39,229 bases of DNA from a virus, in the IMG/VR virus record IMGVR_UViG_3300050821_007829, positions 1 to 39,229 of that record, one strand, 5' to 3'. Position numbers and translations under genes: made by a program. Shown piece by piece: positions 1,634 to 15,630 of the stretch (the stretch's first letter is position 1; each line of letters starts with the position of its first letter). The notes under the pieces are model-generated. The model made no database searches, was not told the origin of the DNA, and saw nothing but the letters and a program-made list of their open reading frames with translations.

Positions 1634-1815
1634 CGACCTGTCACCTGGGAATATTGATCGCGCTCGCACGCAGCTGTAGCCGATTCCTGATCCGGAAAAT
1701 GACCGTTCAGCTTTTCGACGTGATCGTGCTCGGTGGCCTTGCGCTCGGCGAGCCAGTAGAAATCGTTATGCGAATGCACGCGCCGCACTCGATGAGTTGC
1801 GGTCTCGTAGGTCAT
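1630..1815 (-). CDS. Hypothetical protein (61 aa)
   Basis: The ATG at 1815 overlaps the TGA of the winged-helix gene as ATGA, which decides this start over upstream in-frame ATGs (for example 1839). The product is charged and soluble, with a His/Arg-rich first half (THRVRRVHSHNDFYWL). No family is recognised. It is coupled at both ends in the leftward unit. Confidence 0.65.
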   Translation of the reverse strand: MTYETATHRVRRVHSHNDFYWLAERKATEHDHVEKLNGHFPDQESATAACERDQYSQVTGR

Positions 1816-2081
1816 CGCATTGACGAAGTGCCATTGCATTTGCGCGTTTCCAATTCCTCGAGCTCCGGAAAATCGTGTGGCTGTGTCGGGATCGGATGGT
1901 ACCCGCCGCAATCATCCTTGGCGACAAAGCCCAAGCGTTCGAGCTCGATCAACCGTCGAAAAAAAACAGCGCGCGGAATCATGGAGAGCACCGATAACCG
2001 TCGCACGTTCGAGCCGGGAAATTGTTTGACCGCCTCGCGCACCTGCCAGGCCTGCACCGCCTGGTGCTTTTCTTGTATCAC
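1812..2081 (-). CDS. Winged-helix-like small protein, first gene of the leftward unit
   Basis: 89 residues from GTG 2081, preceded at 5-6 nt by AAGGGG. An in-frame TTG at 2111 is less likely. Residues about 18-55 read like a winged helix-turn-helix used by phage regulators: a helix (VREAVKQF), a recognition-like segment (SMIPRAVFFRRLIELERLGF) and a wing (VAKDDCGGYHP). It is the first gene of the long leftward late unit and sits at the divergent promoter region, so a role in late-gene control is plausible but only inferred. Confidence 0.65.
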   Translation of the reverse strand: MIQEKHQAVQAWQVREAVKQFPGSNVRRLSVLSMIPRAVFFRRLIELERLGFVAKDDCGGYHPIPTQPHDFPELEELETRKCNGTSSMR

Positions 2082-2157
2082 GTCATCCCCTTCAAAATGG
2101 CGTCTCGTCAAATCGGCATTCTAGGGCCGTTCCCGCGTCCCTCAAGTCCATCGCCCT

Positions 2158-3192: not shown

Positions 3193-3468
3193 ATGACGAG
3201 CAAACTTCGAGGCCGCGCGCGCAAGCACGCGACCCAAAAACCCGTGGCGACTCTCGCGAAGTTGTTCAAGGCCGTCGAGGCCGAACGCGAAAACCTGGGT
3301 CGAGCGATCTCGTTGCTCGCTTGCTTCGAGAGCGCGCTCGAACAGCACGACAACCCGCACAGCGGCCCGTACTTTCCCGACATCGCGCACCTGGCGCGTG
3401 AAATGGTCGACAAGTCCATGGATGCATTGGGAATCGCCATGGACACCATCGATTTGCGCAGCGAGTAA
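3193..3468 (+). CDS. Helical hypothetical protein (91 aa)
   Basis: ATG 3193 lies 21 nt after the small hairpin; only a weak GGTGA precedes it. The N-terminus is basic (KLRGRARKHATQ), followed by two long helices. The stretch AISLLACFESALEQ then GPYFPDIAHLAREMV resembles a common uncharacterised prophage family. No function is known. Confidence 0.7.
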   Translation: MTSKLRGRARKHATQKPVATLAKLFKAVEAERENLGRAISLLACFESALEQHDNPHSGPYFPDIAHLAREMVDKSMDALGIAMDTIDLRSE

Positions 3469-3469
3469 C

Positions 3470-3520
3470 CACCTGGTTGCGCCTTCGATCGAGGACGCAG
3501 CCGGGTGCAAAAATCGCACC
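3470..3520 (+). other. Intergenic hairpin pair, mutually exclusive
   Basis: CACCTGGTTGCG (3470-3481) pairs with CGCAGCCGGGTG (3496-3507), 12 bp with two wobbles. GGTGC (3504-3508) can instead pair with GCACC (3516-3520). The two structures share 3504-3507, so they exclude each other, as in an attenuator. Confidence 0.55.
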
Positions 3521-3541
3521 ATAACAAACGACGAGAGACCT

Positions 3542-4594
3542 ATGAAACGATCAAAAAAACCCGTGGCGAAAGTCACGCCAATCAAACCGCCGCTGAACGG
3601 CAAGGCGATGCAAAAGGCCGACGCGGCGAACCACGCGGCGGCCGTCGCCCAGGTCGCACGCTTCAACGCGACCAAACCGCCCATGCTCGAACTGCCGACA
3701 CCGAAGGCATTGCCCGCGCCGGTCAAAGCGCCGTCCGTGGAATCGCCGAAGGACATCACCTGGTTGACGGTGCGCGTCGACGTGCTGCAGGCGTGCCTGC
3801 TGGTTGCGCCGAAGAAGGATTCGCGCGCAGCGCTCGGCGGCGTGTACCTACACGTAGGGAATACGGGCGAGCTCCGCGCGGTGGCCACCAATGGGCACAC
3901 GCTGCTGCTGCACTCCACGCCGACCAAAGATCTGCCCGCCTGGCTCGACGTGGGGCTCATCCTGCCGCGTGAAGGCCTCGCGATGGCCTTGGGCTGCCTC
4001 GCCAAGCTCGAGGGCGGCAAGGATGCGACCACCTGCCAGATCGGATGGGCGCGCGGCCATGGCTACGCGATCATGCGCGATGCGGAAGAACAGGCGACCT
4101 TTCGACTGCGCCGAATCGACGCGCCGTTTCCTGAGTACCAGAAAATCATCGAAGCTGCGGGCCAGGTCCTCGCCGGCGGCGAGCGACAGCCGCTATCGAG
4201 CACCAGCTACAACGGCGAGTACATCAAGCAGGCGGCCGCCGTCGGCAAGGTGTTCGACGCGAAAGGCTTGACGCCGTTTGCCGGCAACGATCCCAAAGCT
4301 CCCGTGGTCGTCAGCTTCTTCGGCGAGCCTGGCGCGCTGTTTGTCATTGTGCCGCTGGTGAGCTCCGGAGCCGAGCAGCTGCCCGCGCAGACCATGGCGC
4401 TGATCGGCAAGGGCCTGGGCGGCACGCTGGCCGCGCTCAAGGCGACGCAGACCCGGCAGAAAAAGCAGATGGCTGAAACGAAGAGCGAGTCGGAGAAGAA
4501 ATCCCTCGCGGCCGGAATCGCATTGCGGGACGCGCGGATAGCGGACGTGGTCACGGCGATGGGAAAATTGCTGGCGGCGCCGAAAGCGGCTTAA
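3542..4594 (+). CDS. DNA polymerase III beta-clamp-like protein
   Basis: 350 residues from ATG 3542, the first start after the hairpin. Residues 1-72 are a Lys/Pro/Ala-rich linker. Residues about 73-275 read like sliding-clamp sequence: TWLTVRVDVLQACLLVAPKK (start of a clamp repeat), ATNGHTLLL (116-123), FPEYQKII (196-203, compare the DnaN FPDYRRV motif) and ALFVIVPL (265-272, compare the clamp C-terminal end). Residues about 280-350 are a charged helical tail. The clamp-like part is shorter than the usual 366-residue three-domain clamp, so a domain may be missing. No phage DNA polymerase is encoded in the window. It may act with, or interfere with, host replication; this is inference. Confidence 0.75.
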   Translation: MKRSKKPVAKVTPIKPPLNGKAMQKADAANHAAAVAQVARFNATKPPMLELPTPKALPAPVKAPSVESPKDITWLTVRVDVLQACLLVAPKKDSRAALGGVYLHVGNTGELRAVATNGHTLLLHSTPTKDLPAWLDVGLILPREGLAMALGCLAKLEGGKDATTCQIGWARGHGYAIMRDAEEQATFRLRRIDAPFPEYQKIIEAAGQVLAGGERQPLSSTSYNGEYIKQAAAVGKVFDAKGLTPFAGNDPKAPVVVSFFGEPGALFVIVPLVSSGAEQLPAQTMALIGKGLGGTLAALKATQTRQKKQMAETKSESEKKSLAAGIALRDARIADVVTAMGKLLAAPKAA

Positions 4595-4677: not shown

Positions 4678-5559
4678 ATGACATCGAAGGAATCGAACCG
4701 ATCCACCGGGATCGAGTGGACCGAGCATACCTGGAATCCGTTTGTCGGCTGCACCATTCACACGGCCGGGTGCACCAACTGCTATGCGATGCGCGCCGCG
4801 ATGCGCCTGCAGGAATTCGGCATGGAGAGCTACCGCGGCGTGGCGAAGCTCGCGAACGGCAAGCCGATCTGGACCGGCGTGATCAACCGATCGAGCGAGG
4901 CGCAGATGCGCAAGCCGTTCAAGATCAAAAAGCCGTCGATGATTTTCGTCAACTCGATGAGCGACTTCTTCCACGAGGCGGCGAACGACGAGTGGCGCTT
5001 GGACGCCCTGCAGGTGATGGCGAAAACCCGCCACCAGTACCAGGTGCTCACGAAGCGGCCGGAGAACATCGCGCCCTTTATCGAGCGGATCAACGACCGC
5101 GAGAATTTTAGCCATTTCCACCTTGCCGCTTTTCCGCCGAACGTCTGGATCGGCGCCACCGTCGAGCGAGGCGACTGTGTGCACCGTATTGCAACGCTGC
5201 GCAACGTGCCGGCGACGATTCGGTTCCTCTCGATCGAGCCGCTGATCGATGCCGTGGGCCCGATGGACCTGACCGGCATTCACTGGGTCATCCTCGGCGG
5301 CGAGTCAGGACCTGGCGCACGTTCAATGGATGCGGACTGGGCGCGCGAGGTCCGCGATCAATGCACCGCGCAGAAGGTGCCGCTGTTTTTCAAGCAGTGG
5401 GGAATCAACGCCAACAATCCGCTGGCCGCGACGAGGCCGAACGGCGTGACGTTGAGCCAATGGATCGAGCGGAAAGATCCGAACGGCAAGGGCGGCTCGC
5501 TGCTCGATGGGCGCGAGTGGAAGGACTATCCCAAATTCACGCCAGGAGCGACGCCATGA
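4678..5559 (+). CDS. DUF5131 (phage Gp37/Gp68-like) protein
   Basis: 293 residues from ATG 4678. Family hallmarks are visible in order: TGIEWTEHTWNP with C25-x6-C32-x2-C35 and YAM after it, VLTKRPENI, WIGATVE, FLSIEPLID, WVILGGESGPGARSM and PLFFKQWG. The three-cysteine cluster and repeated barrel-like motifs suggest a radical-SAM-like fold, although the biochemical role of the family is not established to my knowledge. It is the first gene of a run coupled by ATGA overlaps (4678, 5556, 5837). Confidence 0.9.
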   Translation: MTSKESNRSTGIEWTEHTWNPFVGCTIHTAGCTNCYAMRAAMRLQEFGMESYRGVAKLANGKPIWTGVINRSSEAQMRKPFKIKKPSMIFVNSMSDFFHEAANDEWRLDALQVMAKTRHQYQVLTKRPENIAPFIERINDRENFSHFHLAAFPPNVWIGATVERGDCVHRIATLRNVPATIRFLSIEPLIDAVGPMDLTGIHWVILGGESGPGARSMDADWAREVRDQCTAQKVPLFFKQWGINANNPLAATRPNGVTLSQWIERKDPNGKGGSLLDGREWKDYPKFTPGATP

Positions 5560-6801: not shown

Positions 6802-7137
6802 TCACTGCCAGGTCTCGATGACCACCGGATTATCGTCCGGCAATCGGTCGGACCTGGTCAGCCCCTTCGGCAGCTGCGCCCGCAGCTGCTCGAGGGTCGC
6901 GCCCTCCAGGTGCACGGGCATCGGCGTGACGCCCTGCATCGTCATGCACGGCCGCGCGACGAACTTGTCCGGCGATCCGTAGACGGTCCACACCAAAACC
7001 TCGCCTACATTCTCGGCGCCATCCTGCAGGCGCTGCGCCGCGCGCGCATCGATCAGCCGACTGCCTCGACCGTTGCCGATGATCATCGTCATGGCCAGCA
7101 CCCCGTGGCTTGCGGCGGCGAAGATCAGATCATGCAC
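6802..7137 (-). CDS. Small phage protein, paralogue of the 5556-5840 gene
   Basis: 111 residues from GTG 7137, with GAGGG 5-6 nt upstream; an in-frame ATG at residue 16 is an alternative. The C-terminal 70 residues (WTVYGSPDKFVARP, PMPVHLEGATLEQLRAQLP, DDNPVVIETW) match the rightward gene at 5556. The N-terminus is more hydrophobic. It is the second gene of a leftward pair lying against the direction of its neighbours. Function unknown. Confidence 0.78.
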   Translation of the reverse strand: MHDLIFAAASHGVLAMTMIIGNGRGSRLIDARAAQRLQDGAENVGEVLVWTVYGSPDKFVARPCMTMQGVTPMPVHLEGATLEQLRAQLPKGLTRSDRLPDDNPVVIETWQ

Positions 7138-7151
7138 AAAGTACCCTCATG

Positions 7152-7183
7152 TTTTGCACAGGGTTTCCACAAATTTATCCACA
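7152..7183 (+). promoter_or_regulatory. DnaA-box-like repeats
   Basis: TTATCCACA at 7175-7183 is a perfect match to the E. coli DnaA box (TTATNCACA). TTTTGCACA at 7152-7160 has one mismatch and GTTTCCACA at 7163-7171 has more. The starts are 11-12 bp apart, about one helical turn, inside the 49-bp gap between the replisome-organiser-like gene and its downstream partner. It is a candidate part of a replication origin. Confidence 0.5.
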
Positions 7184-7186
7184 GTC

Positions 7187-7573
7187 CTAGTGGTCGCGCT
7201 TGGCGCGAGCGACGGCGAGTTCATCGACAAACAGCGCCCGCGTCGCCGGCGGCGCAGGCAATCTCGATGGCTTCGGGTGATCTACTTTTTGGATATCCCA
7301 GTCGGTGATGACGATGTAGTGAGCGCGCCTGACGTCATAGCGGCCGATTAAATTCTCGCGCTCGATCTCCCTCAATAACGCCTCGATCTTCAAGCCAAAC
7401 CCGGATTCGCCCGGGAACAGTTCGTAGGCGAACTCCCCGATATTCTCAACGATCCGGCCTTCATCGTCCGCGATCGTGTAGAGCAGCAGATACAGCAGCC
7501 GCGCATCGTGGGTGAGGTTCTTGAACCTTTCCCATCTCGGCAGATCCGGCGGCAGCTGGCGCTTCTGACTCAC
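7187..7573 (-). CDS. Replisome-organiser-like winged-helix protein
   Basis: 128 residues from GTG 7573. The pattern WERFKNLTHDARLLYLLLYT, then DDEGRI, LFPGES, LLREIERENLIGRY and HYIVITDWDIQKVDHPKPSR is typical of small phage proteins annotated as replication initiator or helix-turn-helix proteins, whose usual ending is W-x-x-x-Q-x-x-D-H-P. They are thought to bind an origin and recruit host replication proteins. The rest of the usual C-terminal loader domain is absent, so this is a short version. It lies next to two repeat clusters (7152-7183 and 7768-7879). A repressor role cannot be excluded. Confidence 0.7.
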   Translation of the reverse strand: MSQKRQLPPDLPRWERFKNLTHDARLLYLLLYTIADDEGRIVENIGEFAYELFPGESGFGLKIEALLREIERENLIGRYDVRRAHYIVITDWDIQKVDHPKPSRLPAPPATRALFVDELAVARAKRDH

Positions 7574-7767
7574 GGTTCTCGGCGATCCTTGCCCGCGCGA
7601 TCTTCTTTTTCGACGCGGCCGGAGACTTTACAGCACCCATAATCGACCTGGCAACCCCTCGCGCGCGTTGGATTTCAATCTTAAGTCTTAGATCCAAACT
7701 CCGACGCGCCCGGCCGCGCGCGCGCACGCGCCCGCACCCGCGCGCCCGCCCGTTCTACATAATGATT

Positions 7768-7811
7768 TTCGCGAATCGTTTCGCGAAAAATTTCGCGAAA
7801 GCTTTCGCGAA
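7768..7811. repeat. Four TTCGCGAA palindromes at exact 12-bp spacing
   Basis: Copies start at 7768, 7780, 7792 and 7804. Each is a perfect 8-bp palindrome, separated by 4-nt spacers (TCGT, AAAT, AGCT). Even spacing close to one helical turn puts all sites on one face of the DNA, as in iterons or cooperative operators. Confidence 0.9.
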
Positions 7812-7816
7812 TTGCG

Positions 7817-7830
7817 GCGCTTGCAAGCGC
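7817..7830. promoter_or_regulatory. 14-bp perfect palindrome
   Basis: GCGCTTGCAAGCGC lies 5 bp after the last TTCGCGAA copy. It is a separate, longer palindrome and could be the site of a second dimeric protein or a hairpin. Confidence 0.75.
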
Positions 7831-7856
7831 GGCGCAGCAAGTGTAAAGGTCGTCGC

Positions 7857-7879
7857 TTCCGGGTACTCGTTTCCGGGTA
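7857..7879 (+). repeat. 9-bp direct repeat TTCCGGGTA
   Basis: Copies at 7857-7865 and 7871-7879 are 14 bp apart start to start, downstream of the palindromes in the same control region. Confidence 0.7.
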
Positions 7880-8010
7880 ATGTCCGATACCGCACAAAGC
7901 CCGAATTTTATGTTCAGTTGATTTTTTCCAAATCGCAGAAGCGGCGGCCGGGTCGGTCGATTCCCGTTTGACATACTGAGGATTATGCGAATCGTGCGGA
8001 GCAGCAATTC

Positions 8011-8211
8011 GTGACGACTTTCCGCGAAAAAATCCAACAGGTTTTGGACGACTTGACCACGCTCAATGGCGCGCTCAATCAGCTCGGCCGATACCCCGAA
8101 GCGGCGCGAGTCCAGCACGCGATCTGCGAGGTCTCCGCGGTATCGACAGACGGCCATTTTTCTGTCGCGCAATGGGTCATGCCTGCGCGCTTGAAGCTCA
8201 AGGAAACTTGA
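8011..8211 (+). CDS. Small helical protein, paralogue of the 9475 gene
   Basis: 66 residues from GTG 8011, with GGAG at 7998-8001. The helix FREKIQQVLDDLTTLNGALN then YPEAARVQHAI matches FRARLEQMQDD...ELNKSRNYDAAMRVQQVL in the product of 9475-9723, so the two are diverged copies. It is the first gene of the rightward run after the control region. Function unknown. Confidence 0.75.
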   Translation: MTTFREKIQQVLDDLTTLNGALNQLGRYPEAARVQHAICEVSAVSTDGHFSVAQWVMPARLKLKET

Positions 8212-8214
8212 CCC

Positions 8215-8520
8215 ATGAACGCAGCACCGTGGCGTCGCGGCATGACCAAAAAAACGCCGTCCCCAGGTTCGCGTAGCGTGGACTCAAACTTCGGTCAGAA
8301 CCGAAAACTGCAGCAGTCCAAGTGCGACGCCTTCAACGCCGCCCATCCGGTGGGCAGCGCAGTCGATCTGCTGAAGGACAACGGCGAAACTCTGCGCACA
8401 GTCACGCGCTCGATCGCGCAGGTCCTCGAAGGGCATACGCCGGTGATCTGGGTTCGAGGCGTCGCAGGCTGCTACCTGCTAGACCGCGTCACTCCTGTGA
8501 TGCAAGGTGATCAAACATGA
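8215..8520 (+). CDS. Hypothetical protein (101 aa)
   Basis: ATG 8215 is 3 nt after the previous stop, with AAGGAA about 11 nt upstream. A second in-frame ATG at 8242 has no ribosome site. The N-terminal 40 residues are polar and basic; the C-terminal half (GSAVDLLKDNGETLRTVT...HTPVIWVRGVAGCYLLDRV) looks like a small beta domain. Its TGA overlaps the next ATG. Function unknown. Confidence 0.75.
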   Translation: MNAAPWRRGMTKKTPSPGSRSVDSNFGQNRKLQQSKCDAFNAAHPVGSAVDLLKDNGETLRTVTRSIAQVLEGHTPVIWVRGVAGCYLLDRVTPVMQGDQT

Positions 8521-10612: not shown

Positions 10613-10840
10613 GTGACAGGCAGCAAACCAATCAAGCGCGGCCGTGGCCGTCCCTCACTTACCGGCACGCCAGGCGCGCGGTTCATGATCCGGCTGCCGC
10701 AGCACGTCGCGGACTATCTGCGCAAGGTCGGCGGCGGTTCCCTCTCGCGCGGGATCATTCAGCAAACCACGGGTGGACCCCCAGACCTTCGCACGTTTCG
10801 CACCACGCCGCCCAAGGCTAAGCGCGTAGCGAAGGCATGA
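10613..10840 (+). CDS. AT-hook plus ribbon-helix-helix-like DNA-binding protein
   Basis: 75 residues from GTG 10613, with GGAG at 10600-10603 and 9-nt spacing. KRGRGRPSLTG at residues 8-18 contains the AT-hook core RGRP. ARFMIRLPQHVADYLRK and SLSRGIIQ then follow the strand-helix-helix pattern of Arc/MetJ-type repressors. It is directly coupled to a membrane peptide and the serine integrase. A role as regulator of integration or lysogeny, or as directionality factor, is possible but inferred. Confidence 0.7.
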   Translation: MTGSKPIKRGRGRPSLTGTPGARFMIRLPQHVADYLRKVGGGSLSRGIIQQTTGGPPDLRTFRTTPPKAKRVAKA

Positions 10841-10953
10841 GCCTGGAGCAAGTGCTCGCGTGGGTTGTGATTCCGATGCTTACCGGCTCGGCTTGCGCAG
10901 CGATCGGATTCTACTTCGGAAAAAAGATAACAAAACTCAAGGATGGCAAATGA
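10837..10953 (+). CDS. 38-aa single-span membrane peptide
   Basis: ATG 10837 and TGA 10953 overlap the neighbouring genes at both ends (ATGA each time). Residues about 6-28 (VLAWVVIPMLTGSACAAIGF) form one hydrophobic helix, followed by a basic tail (GKKITKLKDGK), predicting N-out/C-in. It sits between a DNA-binding protein and the integrase. Function unknown. Confidence 0.65.
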   Translation: MSLEQVLAWVVIPMLTGSACAAIGFYFGKKITKLKDGK

Positions 10954-12587
10954 AACGAGCAGCGACCTACGCACGATTCTCAACCGACAAACAGACGGAG
11001 GCCTCGATCGATGATCAGCGGCGGTGCTGTGCGGACTACGCGAAGCAGAACGGCCTGCAGGTCCTCCACGAATTCTCAGATCTCGCGATCTCAGGCGCGA
11101 GCTTCGGCAATCGCCCAGGCGTCAACGCCCTGCAGAAGGCAGCCTTTGCGGGCGAGCTCGACGTCATCCTGATCGCGGATCTGACCAGGCTCTCACGCAA
11201 TAGCGCCGACCTTCCAAAATTCCTCGAGCGGATGCGGTTTCGCAAAATCCGCGTGATCGGAGTACTTGACCACTTCGACTCGGACCAGCGGCACTCGCGA
11301 ATGCAGGCTGGCCTGTCGGGCATCATGTCGGACGAGTACCGCCTGGCCATCGGCGAGCGCGTGCACCTGGCGCTCGATACCCTCGCTAAGTCCGGCAAGC
11401 CGACGGGCTCCAAGGCCTACGGCTACACATCGAAGCAAGTCGTGATTCCCGAGCAGGCAAAAATCGTCAAAGAAATCTTCGAGCGCATCGCCGCCGGCGA
11501 GACCATGTTGGCGATCGCCAGCGATCTGAACGGCCGCCAAGTCCGCTCGCCCGGCGCCAGCTGGAAGGGCCGCGTCACCAACCGCGGCGACGGACGCTGG
11601 ATCGTGCCGGCCTTGAACAACATGCTGCAGAACGAAACGTACATGGGCCGCGTGGTCTGGAATCGCTCGCAGTGGGTCAAAGATCCGGAGACCGGCAAGC
11701 GCACGCGCCGCGAACGGCCGGAATCAGAATGGATCATCGACGAGCGGCCCGAGCTCGCCCTCGTCGACCGCAAAACCTGGGACACCGTCTCGGCTTTGAT
11801 GACGCGGCGGAAACTCAGCTACGGCAAGAAGGGTGGCGGCCGCACCAAGTACCCGTTGTCCGGATTGCTGGTCTGCGGCCGCTGCGATGCGCGGTTCATC
11901 ATTTCGGGCGGCGGGAAAAACTCCAGAGGCTATGGCAGCGGCCTGCCCCGGTACTACACCTGCTCGACCTTCCACCAGGGCGGACCGGCCGCCTGCAGCA
12001 ATTCGATCCGGGTGCCGCGCGATCTCTGCGAGACTCGGCTGTTAGAACCCGCGCTCAATGACCTGCTGTCGGACGAAGCGGTGGACAAGGCCGTGATCCG
12101 AATCCGCAAGGCGCTCAAAGAGCGGCCGCCCGAGCCCGTGATTGACCTCTCGGCCATAGACACAAAAATACATAAAGTTCAGGCGTTGGTGGCCAGCGGG
12201 GCGCTGGATGCGGACATGGCCGAGCCGATATACAAAAAACTGGAGGCTGAGCGGTTGGCGATTGTGCGACAGTCGCACAGTGCTGCACGGCCGCCCCTGG
12301 TCTCGGGTCCGTGGGGGCTGGAGGCTGAGTACCGCGAGCACGCCCAAAAGTTGCGGGCGGATCTCACGGGTGAGGATGCGGACGTCGCGCGCGCCGCGCT
12401 CGCCTCAATCTACGGCCAGCGCATCCGGCTGCTGCCGGACAAGCACGGCCTCCACCTTGTGGCGGAGGTCCATTTCCAGGCCAACGCGGTGCTGCACGCG
12501 GTCGGCGGCTCAGTGGGTCGTATTTCACTGAGTAGCGGGGGCCTGCAATCGGCTCATATACCCCTGATCAGAAAGGGGCAAAAATGA
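10950..12587 (+). CDS. int: Large serine integrase
   Basis: 545 residues from ATG 10950, with AAGGA at 10939-10943. Catalyses site-specific recombination between attP and attB. The N-terminal resolvase domain has YARFSTDKQ with catalytic Ser11, DLAISGASFGNRPG and LTRLSRNSAD. A recombinase domain follows (KAYGYTSKQ..., NMLQNETYMGRVVWNRSQW). The zinc ribbon starts near residue 308 (VCGRCDARF, then YYTCSTF and AACSN), and a C-terminal coiled-coil region follows. Length is normal for the family. It identifies the phage as temperate. Confidence 0.95.
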   Translation: MKRAATYARFSTDKQTEASIDDQRRCCADYAKQNGLQVLHEFSDLAISGASFGNRPGVNALQKAAFAGELDVILIADLTRLSRNSADLPKFLERMRFRKIRVIGVLDHFDSDQRHSRMQAGLSGIMSDEYRLAIGERVHLALDTLAKSGKPTGSKAYGYTSKQVVIPEQAKIVKEIFERIAAGETMLAIASDLNGRQVRSPGASWKGRVTNRGDGRWIVPALNNMLQNETYMGRVVWNRSQWVKDPETGKRTRRERPESEWIIDERPELALVDRKTWDTVSALMTRRKLSYGKKGGGRTKYPLSGLLVCGRCDARFIISGGGKNSRGYGSGLPRYYTCSTFHQGGPAACSNSIRVPRDLCETRLLEPALNDLLSDEAVDKAVIRIRKALKERPPEPVIDLSAIDTKIHKVQALVASGALDADMAEPIYKKLEAERLAIVRQSHSAARPPLVSGPWGLEAEYREHAQKLRADLTGEDADVARAALASIYGQRIRLLPDKHGLHLVAEVHFQANAVLHAVGGSVGRISLSSGGLQSAHIPLIRKGQK

Positions 12588-14850: not shown

Positions 14851-15630
14851 ATGAGCACGACCTGGCGCAACCGAATCGTGGCCACCGCGGAAGTGGATCC
14901 GGCCTCGCTCACCGAGCACCCCATGAACTGGCGGGTGCATCCGAAAAATCAGCGCGACACGGTTGAGGACGCGCTCGACAAAATCGGCTGGATCCAAACC
15001 GTGGTCGTCAACCGCACCAGCGGCCGCATGATCGATGGGCATCTGCGCATCGCCTCGGCGATCCGCCGCGGCATCACCTCGGTGCCGGTGAGCTACGTCG
15101 AGTTGTCCGAGGCCGAAGAGAAGGCGGCGCTGGCCTCGCTCGATCCCATGTCGGCGATGGCGGTGATGGACGGCGAGAAGTTGACCGAGCTCTTGAAGGA
15201 TCTGGAGTTCGGCGGCGGCGCGCTCGATGCCATGTTCGACGAGCTGCGCGAGCAGGCGGAAGGCTCCACGCTCGCGGCCGCCAGCAAGAACCCCGAAGGC
15301 CTGCTCACCAAAGGCGCGCCGGTCGTCAAAGCCGTGATCGCGGTCGCCGACATCAACCTGGTGGAGCGTGCACTCGCCGCGAGCGGCGCCCTGTCGCGCG
15401 GTGAAGCGCTGCTCGATATCTGCAGGGTCTACCTATTCGTGAAGAAGGACGGCAATGAAAAAGGACAACACGACGCTGAACCAAAAGGCGGCGTTACGCT
15501 TGAGCCTCTTGAAGCAAATCCAAAAACCGATAGTCCTCGAGACGCACGCGGGAACGGGGCAAGTGTGGAAACGGGTGTACAGCGAAATCGCCCAAGGCGT
15601 GGCGTTCGACGAAAAACCCGCAAAGGCTGA
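14851..15630 (+). CDS. ParB/Srx-fold nuclease-like protein
   Basis: 259 residues from ATG 14851, with GAGGGG upstream. Residues about 15-100 carry the ParB-like core: HPMNWRVHPKNQRDTVEDAL, VVNRTSGRMIDGHLRIASAI (DGHLR is the nuclease/CTPase-like box) and SLDPMSAMA. Phage ParB-like proteins often sit beside DNA methyltransferases, as here. The last 59 residues are low in complexity and lie out of frame over the start of the methyltransferase gene; the natural end is probably near residue 200. Confidence 0.82.
   Translation: MSTTWRNRIVATAEVDPASLTEHPMNWRVHPKNQRDTVEDALDKIGWIQTVVVNRTSGRMIDGHLRIASAIRRGITSVPVSYVELSEAEEKAALASLDPMSAMAVMDGEKLTELLKDLEFGGGALDAMFDELREQAEGSTLAAASKNPEGLLTKGAPVVKAVIAVADINLVERALAASGALSRGEALLDICRVYLFVKKDGNEKGQHDAEPKGGVTLEPLEANPKTDSPRDARGNGASVETGVQRNRPRRGVRRKTRKG

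Follow-up and report, generated by a model that had tools for sequence, protein, structure and literature searches.

The palindrome array and its surroundings

The window analysed here is a whole virus record of 39,229 bases (IMGVR_UViG_3300050821_007829, positions 1 to 39,229). Its terminase genes lie on the minus strand, and no close phage genomes were found for it by DNA similarity. A non-coding gap in the window, with a minus-strand open reading frame (ORF) on one side and rightward ORFs on the other, holds a tandem array of short palindromes. The genes and features discussed below, in order of position, are:

1812-2111, minus strand: small helix-turn-helix (HTH) protein; its IclR-type HTH match is weak and stays below cut-off (0.0083)
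3398-4594, plus strand: sliding-clamp-like protein (phrog_947 at 8.7e-12; its Pfam match, DNA_pol3_beta_2, is below cut-off), with homologues in four of eight related records
4678-5559, plus strand: DUF5131 protein (3.4e-83), with homologues in all eight related records
7152-7183, plus strand: DnaA-box cluster, with TTTTGCACA at 7152-7160, the near-match GTTTCCACA at 7163-7171 and TTATCCACA at 7175-7183; the strict boxes are conserved
7187-7573, minus strand: stand-alone winged-helix protein of 128 aa, proposed to bind the array (PHROG matches, codon-position pattern, structure model)
7625-7654, minus strand: promoter-like site of the 7187-7573 gene (TTGCCA-18-TAAAGT); 0.4 expected in shuffles
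7670-7697: AT-rich element containing short repeats (on the minus strand, GGATCTAAGACTTAAGATTGAAATCC), the first of two candidates for melting; recognisable in the alignment of nine records, in which it varies
7700-7754: GC-rich block of largely alternating CG, separating the 7670-7697 element from the array; also seen in the alignment of nine records
7768-7811: putative iteron array of four TTCGCGAA palindromes in 12-bp steps, separated by spacers TCGT, AAAT and AGCT; kept in nine of nine records together with the neighbouring gene
7904-7933: AT-rich 30-bp stretch (80% AT), second candidate for melting; one of the two most AT-rich in the window
10613-10840, plus strand: small basic protein, with homologues in six of the eight related records searched

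An earlier note on this DNA had reported four palindromes at exact 12-bp spacing in a gap between divergent genes and had judged that spacing unlikely to arise by chance, and on each of these points it is borne out. The copies start at 7768, 7780, 7792 and 7804, and the array lies 194 bp upstream of the start codon of the 7187-7573 gene. Identical 8-bp palindromes following one another at 12 bp reached a run of one in 194 of 200 Markov-1 simulations of the window and of two in the other six, against four observed; with the period left free between 8 and 30 bp, 60 simulations again reached two at most. The four-copy array is real and far beyond chance. It occupies a single place: the window holds only two more exact copies of TTCGCGAA (31847 and 34517), no second such array was found elsewhere in the genome, and no Rfam family was matched. 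The same note had also assigned to the array a 14-bp palindrome, GCGCTTGCAAGCGC, which does exist at 7817-7830 but was rejected as part of the element, as such palindromes are at chance level in the window (10 exact ones, where simulations average 5.9, sd 2.5) and this one is not kept in aligned relatives; the close relative G006 carries GTGCTTGCCAGCGC at that place, with the palindrome lost.

On the rightward side of the gap, the first ORF (8011-8211) has a homologue in none of the eight related records, and 8215-8520 is the first rightward ORF with homologues there. A conserved block at 7967-7990 (CATAATCCTCAGTATGTTAAAC on the minus strand), shared by the window, G002, G004, G005, G006 and L026, stands ahead of the rightward genes and is possibly a rightward promoter. 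Sequence similar to the 7904-7933 stretch occurs in G004 and G005. Within the GC-rich block, a tandem repeat at 7704-7752 has a 12-bp period of its own and is kept in relatives. The site at 7625-7654 is the only promoter-like one in 7100-8300, in a scan blind to other promoter types, and lies ~113 bp from the array. Strict matches to TTWTNCACA, which we take to be the DnaA box, number only two in the window; both fall within 32 bp just past the stop codon of the 7187-7573 gene, on its far side from the array and ~585 bp away. Two such boxes within 30 bp arose in 0 of 200 simulations, and at least one strict box lies past this gene in all nine records, with few elsewhere.

The adjoining winged-helix protein

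The earlier note had placed the array near a replisome-organiser-like gene, a description that agrees with the protein families matched. The 128-aa product of 7187-7573 matches four PHROG families of "replication initiation protein" (phrog_2149, 2.6e-14; phrog_1408, 7.6e-13; 16167, 2.9e-10; 12556, 2.4e-6). All matches are limited to the N-terminal 90-120 family positions, with those to phrog_2149 and phrog_1408 spanning profile positions 15-121. By tblastn it aligns at ~25-33% identity with the N-termini of replication initiators from phages (133 records at E <= 0.01), which are often annotated merely as "hypothetical protein". Third-position changes are favoured in the gene (f3 = 0.55). The linker and C-terminal region of its relatives are missing, with 128 aa here versus a median of 266 aa in 98 complete relatives, and homologues in the related records stop at the same place. 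Judged from these alignments, the protein corresponds to the DNA-binding domain at the N-terminus of phage replication initiators. A search for homologues in bacterial genomes gave 34 candidate stretches, of which none was confirmed.

An AlphaFold2 model built from eight sequences (mean pLDDT 76.8) has a predicted winged-helix topology. Foldseek ranked 4pql best (E = 2.4e-3), and VIA-align gave Z 7.0-7.9 for 4pql, 4pt7, 5kbj and 4pta, in a list with other winged helices; the 4pql alignment (Z 7.9, 90 residues, rmsd 3.4) likewise stands alongside unrelated winged helices. 4PTA and 4PT7 are staphylococcal plasmid RepA proteins, according to the excerpt of PMC7145576. With Z below 8, the likeness of the model to RepA_N structures is a resemblance, short of proof. 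The Pfam RepA_N profile (PF06970) matched none of the six family members scanned; the only Pfam match among them was HTH_36, below cut-off, in four of the six (best 0.077). Lambda O protein is absent from the VIA-align and Foldseek lists, which counts for neither side.

Tandem palindromes near a winged-helix protein would also suit the partition site (centromere) of a plasmid-like prophage, and the Foldseek matches include the partition protein TubR (4asn, E = 0.059). We consider this extremely unlikely. The window encodes a large serine integrase (10950-12587), no ParA- or TubZ-like protein was found among its ORFs scanned, and the families matched by the 7187-7573 protein are replication initiators. 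ParB-like hits of the 14851-15630 product cover residues 10-133 only, a place shared by a DNA methyltransferase family.

Conservation of the array and recurrence of its core

Homologues of the 128-aa protein occur in eight other viral records at 66-95% identity, and the array lies in the same gap in all nine; because G004 and G005 hardly differ in this region, the nine amount to eight independent cases. The arrays have four to six units each. The earlier note had proposed looking for the spacing in relatives, where it is conserved at exactly 12 bp in eight of the nine records; in the ninth, L022, it is irregular, being kept within two pairs of units and lost between them. A TTAACTGTTAAA palindrome adjoins the array in L003 and L022.

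Unit statistics were drawn from 31 units in seven records, leaving out G004 as a duplicate and L022 as irregular. Unit positions 2, 3, 6 and 7 (TC..GA) are invariant, the outer positions vary in three units, all at array ends, and all four spacer positions are variable. The centre is GC in 25 units and CG in six, always palindromic. The CCGG core is found in all five units of L026 and in one of the six units of G002, which reads TTCCGGAA among TTCGCGAA neighbours. Because the centre switches on both halves, the core stays a palindrome, and these paired switches point to a symmetric reader of the units.

The mixed G002 array also bears on whether, in single-stranded DNA or RNA, neighbouring units pair to form hairpins with a stem of 8 bp and a loop of 4 nt, serving as a primase or helicase assembly site or as a terminator. 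The strand folds better than shuffles (z = -3.0), and one pair of units was flagged as terminator-like (two found versus 1.4 expected). In G002, however, the deviant unit would break pairing with its neighbours while each unit keeps its own palindrome, which disfavours hairpins between units, and hairpins have no need of units that are self-palindromic. This structural role is thus very improbable.

Three exact TTCGCGAA copies at 12 bp occur in eight viral stretches, six from the nine-record set plus L007 and L001. In L007 the array lies inside a 214-aa initiator gene, right after the code for the domain, and the gene product matches the same four PHROG families. No initiator was found in the 20 kb around the array of L001. 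In bacterial genomes the pattern gave six stretches, with an initiator only in L054 from Pseudoclavibacter helvolus, which is the same element as L007; L051, L052 and others appear to be coding tandem repeats and were set aside. L007 comes from isolate 2824195264, as does a further viral contig, L309, and each has an array in an initiator gene.

A blind scan of the viral collection for three TCGCGA cores with N4 spacers (10 bp), using no protein information, gave at least 120 stretches. These were searched with a hidden Markov model (HMM) of the initiator domain built from 25 domain sequences, one of which (L007) had itself been found through its array. The domain was present within 1 kb in 107 of the 120 matches listed. 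Among these 107, 93 have the array immediately after the domain code (14 with a second array inside it) and 14 have it only inside, with a median gap of 4 bp between domain code and array. There is redundancy among the 107 hits: together with the 12-bp set they comprise 111 domains, which reduce to 19 at 65% identity. A control palindrome of the same composition, GTCGAC, gave seven stretches, none with an initiator. The DNA pattern alone thus retrieved replication initiators from the viral collection for 107 of the 120 matches listed, so such an array can serve as a candidate origin signature. We know of no located origin for most uncultured phages, for which such a signature may be of use.

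With N6 spacers (12 bp), three TCGCGA cores gave 31 stretches, nine of them with an initiator within 1 kb; many of the remainder resemble coding repeats, since a 12-bp period keeps the reading frame. The looser pattern TTCNNGAA in three copies gave 106 stretches, mostly coding tandem repeats, and among the 105 checked with the HMM (L008 was left out) eight had an initiator within 1 kb, seven of them already known. GGAACA repeats after the array, prominent in actinophages, occur in only 13 of the 107 blind hits and were dropped as a general feature. In L027, 12-bp TTCCGGAA repeats lie in a DnaD-like/O-like initiator gene ahead of DnaB; this case was not counted as support because it does not belong to the family covered by the HMM and its repeats amount to a simple tandem expansion.

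Nineteen initiator loci were also picked by protein similarity alone and then read for TCGCGA. At least five copies lie within the gene in six of them (Lucky10, Persistence, Phayonce, Glaske, Bernal13 and Purky), mostly at 10-11-bp steps, within and right after the domain code. The other 13 have at most one copy in the gene, and several of these carry other short tandem repeats at the same place. About seven TCGCGA repeats lie directly upstream of a full-length initiator in L303 (6111-6190), a second array outside the gene. In a tree of the domain, TCGCGA users fall in several separate branches and the window clade forms a well-supported branch of its own, of uncertain position; this branching makes common descent of the motif plausible. 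The window protein and other TCGCGA users show no visible likeness in their putative recognition helices.

A putative replication origin

From the sequence comparisons above, the array is very probably the iteron block of the replication origin of this soil phage, read by its own initiator. We infer that dimers of the 128-aa protein would each sit on one compact TTC(GC/CG)GAA palindrome, with neighbouring dimers 12 bp apart forming a cooperative initiator complex along the array. An adjacent AT-rich element, either 7670-7697 or 7904-7933, would then melt, and host DnaA at the boxes just past the initiator gene would probably help to load the helicase. Loading helped by DnaA is proposed because the 128-aa protein is without the C-terminal region and no phage helicase or helicase loader was recognised among the window ORFs scanned. 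Several points count against an origin: in 1-kb windows there is no clear GC-skew switch at the array, the DnaA boxes are ~585 bp off, the putative recognition helix does not visibly resemble those of other TCGCGA users, and the window ORFs scanned include no recognisable phage helicase or loader. In addition, of the 19 loci chosen by protein, 13 hold no more than a single TCGCGA in the gene, and only nine of the 31 stretches with 12-bp spacing have an initiator within 1 kb.

The earlier note had offered iterons of an origin or a cooperative operator, perhaps the lysogeny switch, as readings of the array. The first, beside a replisome-organiser-like gene, is well supported; the second is not. 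As an operator, the array would be a cooperative site through which a phage regulator controls the divergent transcripts, the candidates being the winged-helix protein, the 1812-2111 HTH protein and the 10613-10840 protein. Divergent genes do flank the array, and the L303 array is just upstream of its initiator gene. Compact 8-bp tandem palindromes also fit ribbon-helix-helix proteins, and the 10613-10840 protein, although without a match in the Pfam and PHROG profile sets scanned, has what we take to be a CopG-like pattern; the two related records without a homologue of it are short or end nearby. As a binder of the array this protein is a candidate, yet nothing points to it. The L026 array has a changed core in every unit, with no change in the putative DNA-contact strand of its 10613-10840 homologue. 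Some 113 bp separate the array from the single promoter-like site found in 7100-8300, no second array was found in the genome, and the same core forms arrays within initiator genes of other phages and marks initiator genes in 107 of the 120 blind matches listed. The distance to the promoter-like site and the link of the core to initiators make an operator role alone less likely, and we regard it as unlikely. The array may have a double role as origin and operator.

The initiators of Gordonia, Mycobacterium and Arthrobacter phages in the phrog_2149 group (Lucky10, Bernal13 and Purky) share with the window protein the same N-terminal domain family and with the array the same tandem TCGCGA core. 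In those phages a full-length initiator gene contains the repeats, spaced at 10-11 bp, whereas those of the window lie outside the gene at 12 bp, beside a protein consisting of the domain only. It is possible, though we would stop short of calling it probable, that a one-gene module of initiator and origin has come apart here into a split replicon, in which a bare winged-helix domain acts on extragenic iterons and loading by host DnaA leaves no need for a C-terminal loader from the phage; compact TCGCGA palindrome arrays may, more widely, be an origin signature in a large and diverse set of phages. A bare DNA-binding domain that starts replication with host DnaA would, if true, show how small a phage initiator can be.

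No prior report of such arrays, or of the in-gene TCGCGA repeats, was found in the literature searched, which covered few subscription journals and leaves their absence unproven. A paper on plasmid RA3 was rejected as a precedent, as TTCGCGAA occurs in the excerpted text only in mutated operator oligonucleotides (PMC9455977). For mycobacteriophages with RepA-like proteins, the excerpt of PMC7157519 presumes the origin to lie within or next to repA and identifies no repeats there; their kinship to the present family is a separate question. In lambda and Stx phages, as excerpted in PMC7466680, gene O carries four to six iterons together with an AT-rich tract in its middle. An origin of this make-up, bound by a phage initiator, is similar to what is proposed for the window, but the lambda iterons lie inside gene O and the window array lies outside its gene, upstream of the start codon. 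The likeness to the lambda origin is one of layout only and rests on no sequence similarity to lambda O.

RepA_N origins offer a further comparison. According to the excerpt of PMC5703833, pSK41 has four Rep boxes inside rep that are bound by an N-terminal winged helix, and the excerpt of PMC7145576 places the RepA_N iterons of the PLE satellite in a non-coding region. In these systems and in pTZ2162, as far as these excerpts go, an N-terminal winged helix acts on tandem boxes, and 4pql, 4pt7, 4pta and 5kbj are among the structural matches of the window protein. RepA_N initiators have a C-terminal domain, whereas the window protein is without it, has no Pfam RepA_N match and stays at Z < 8. 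What is new here relative to the lambda origin and to RepA_N-like origins is that iterons of the in-gene type are placed outside the gene and the initiator is cut down to its DNA-binding domain. In pPR9 Rep, as excerpted in PMC5703833, an HTH_36 domain and its own origin have been swapped into a RepA_N plasmid, so that a phage-like HTH domain and an origin form one exchangeable module; the window protein has a sub-threshold HTH_36 match only (0.077).
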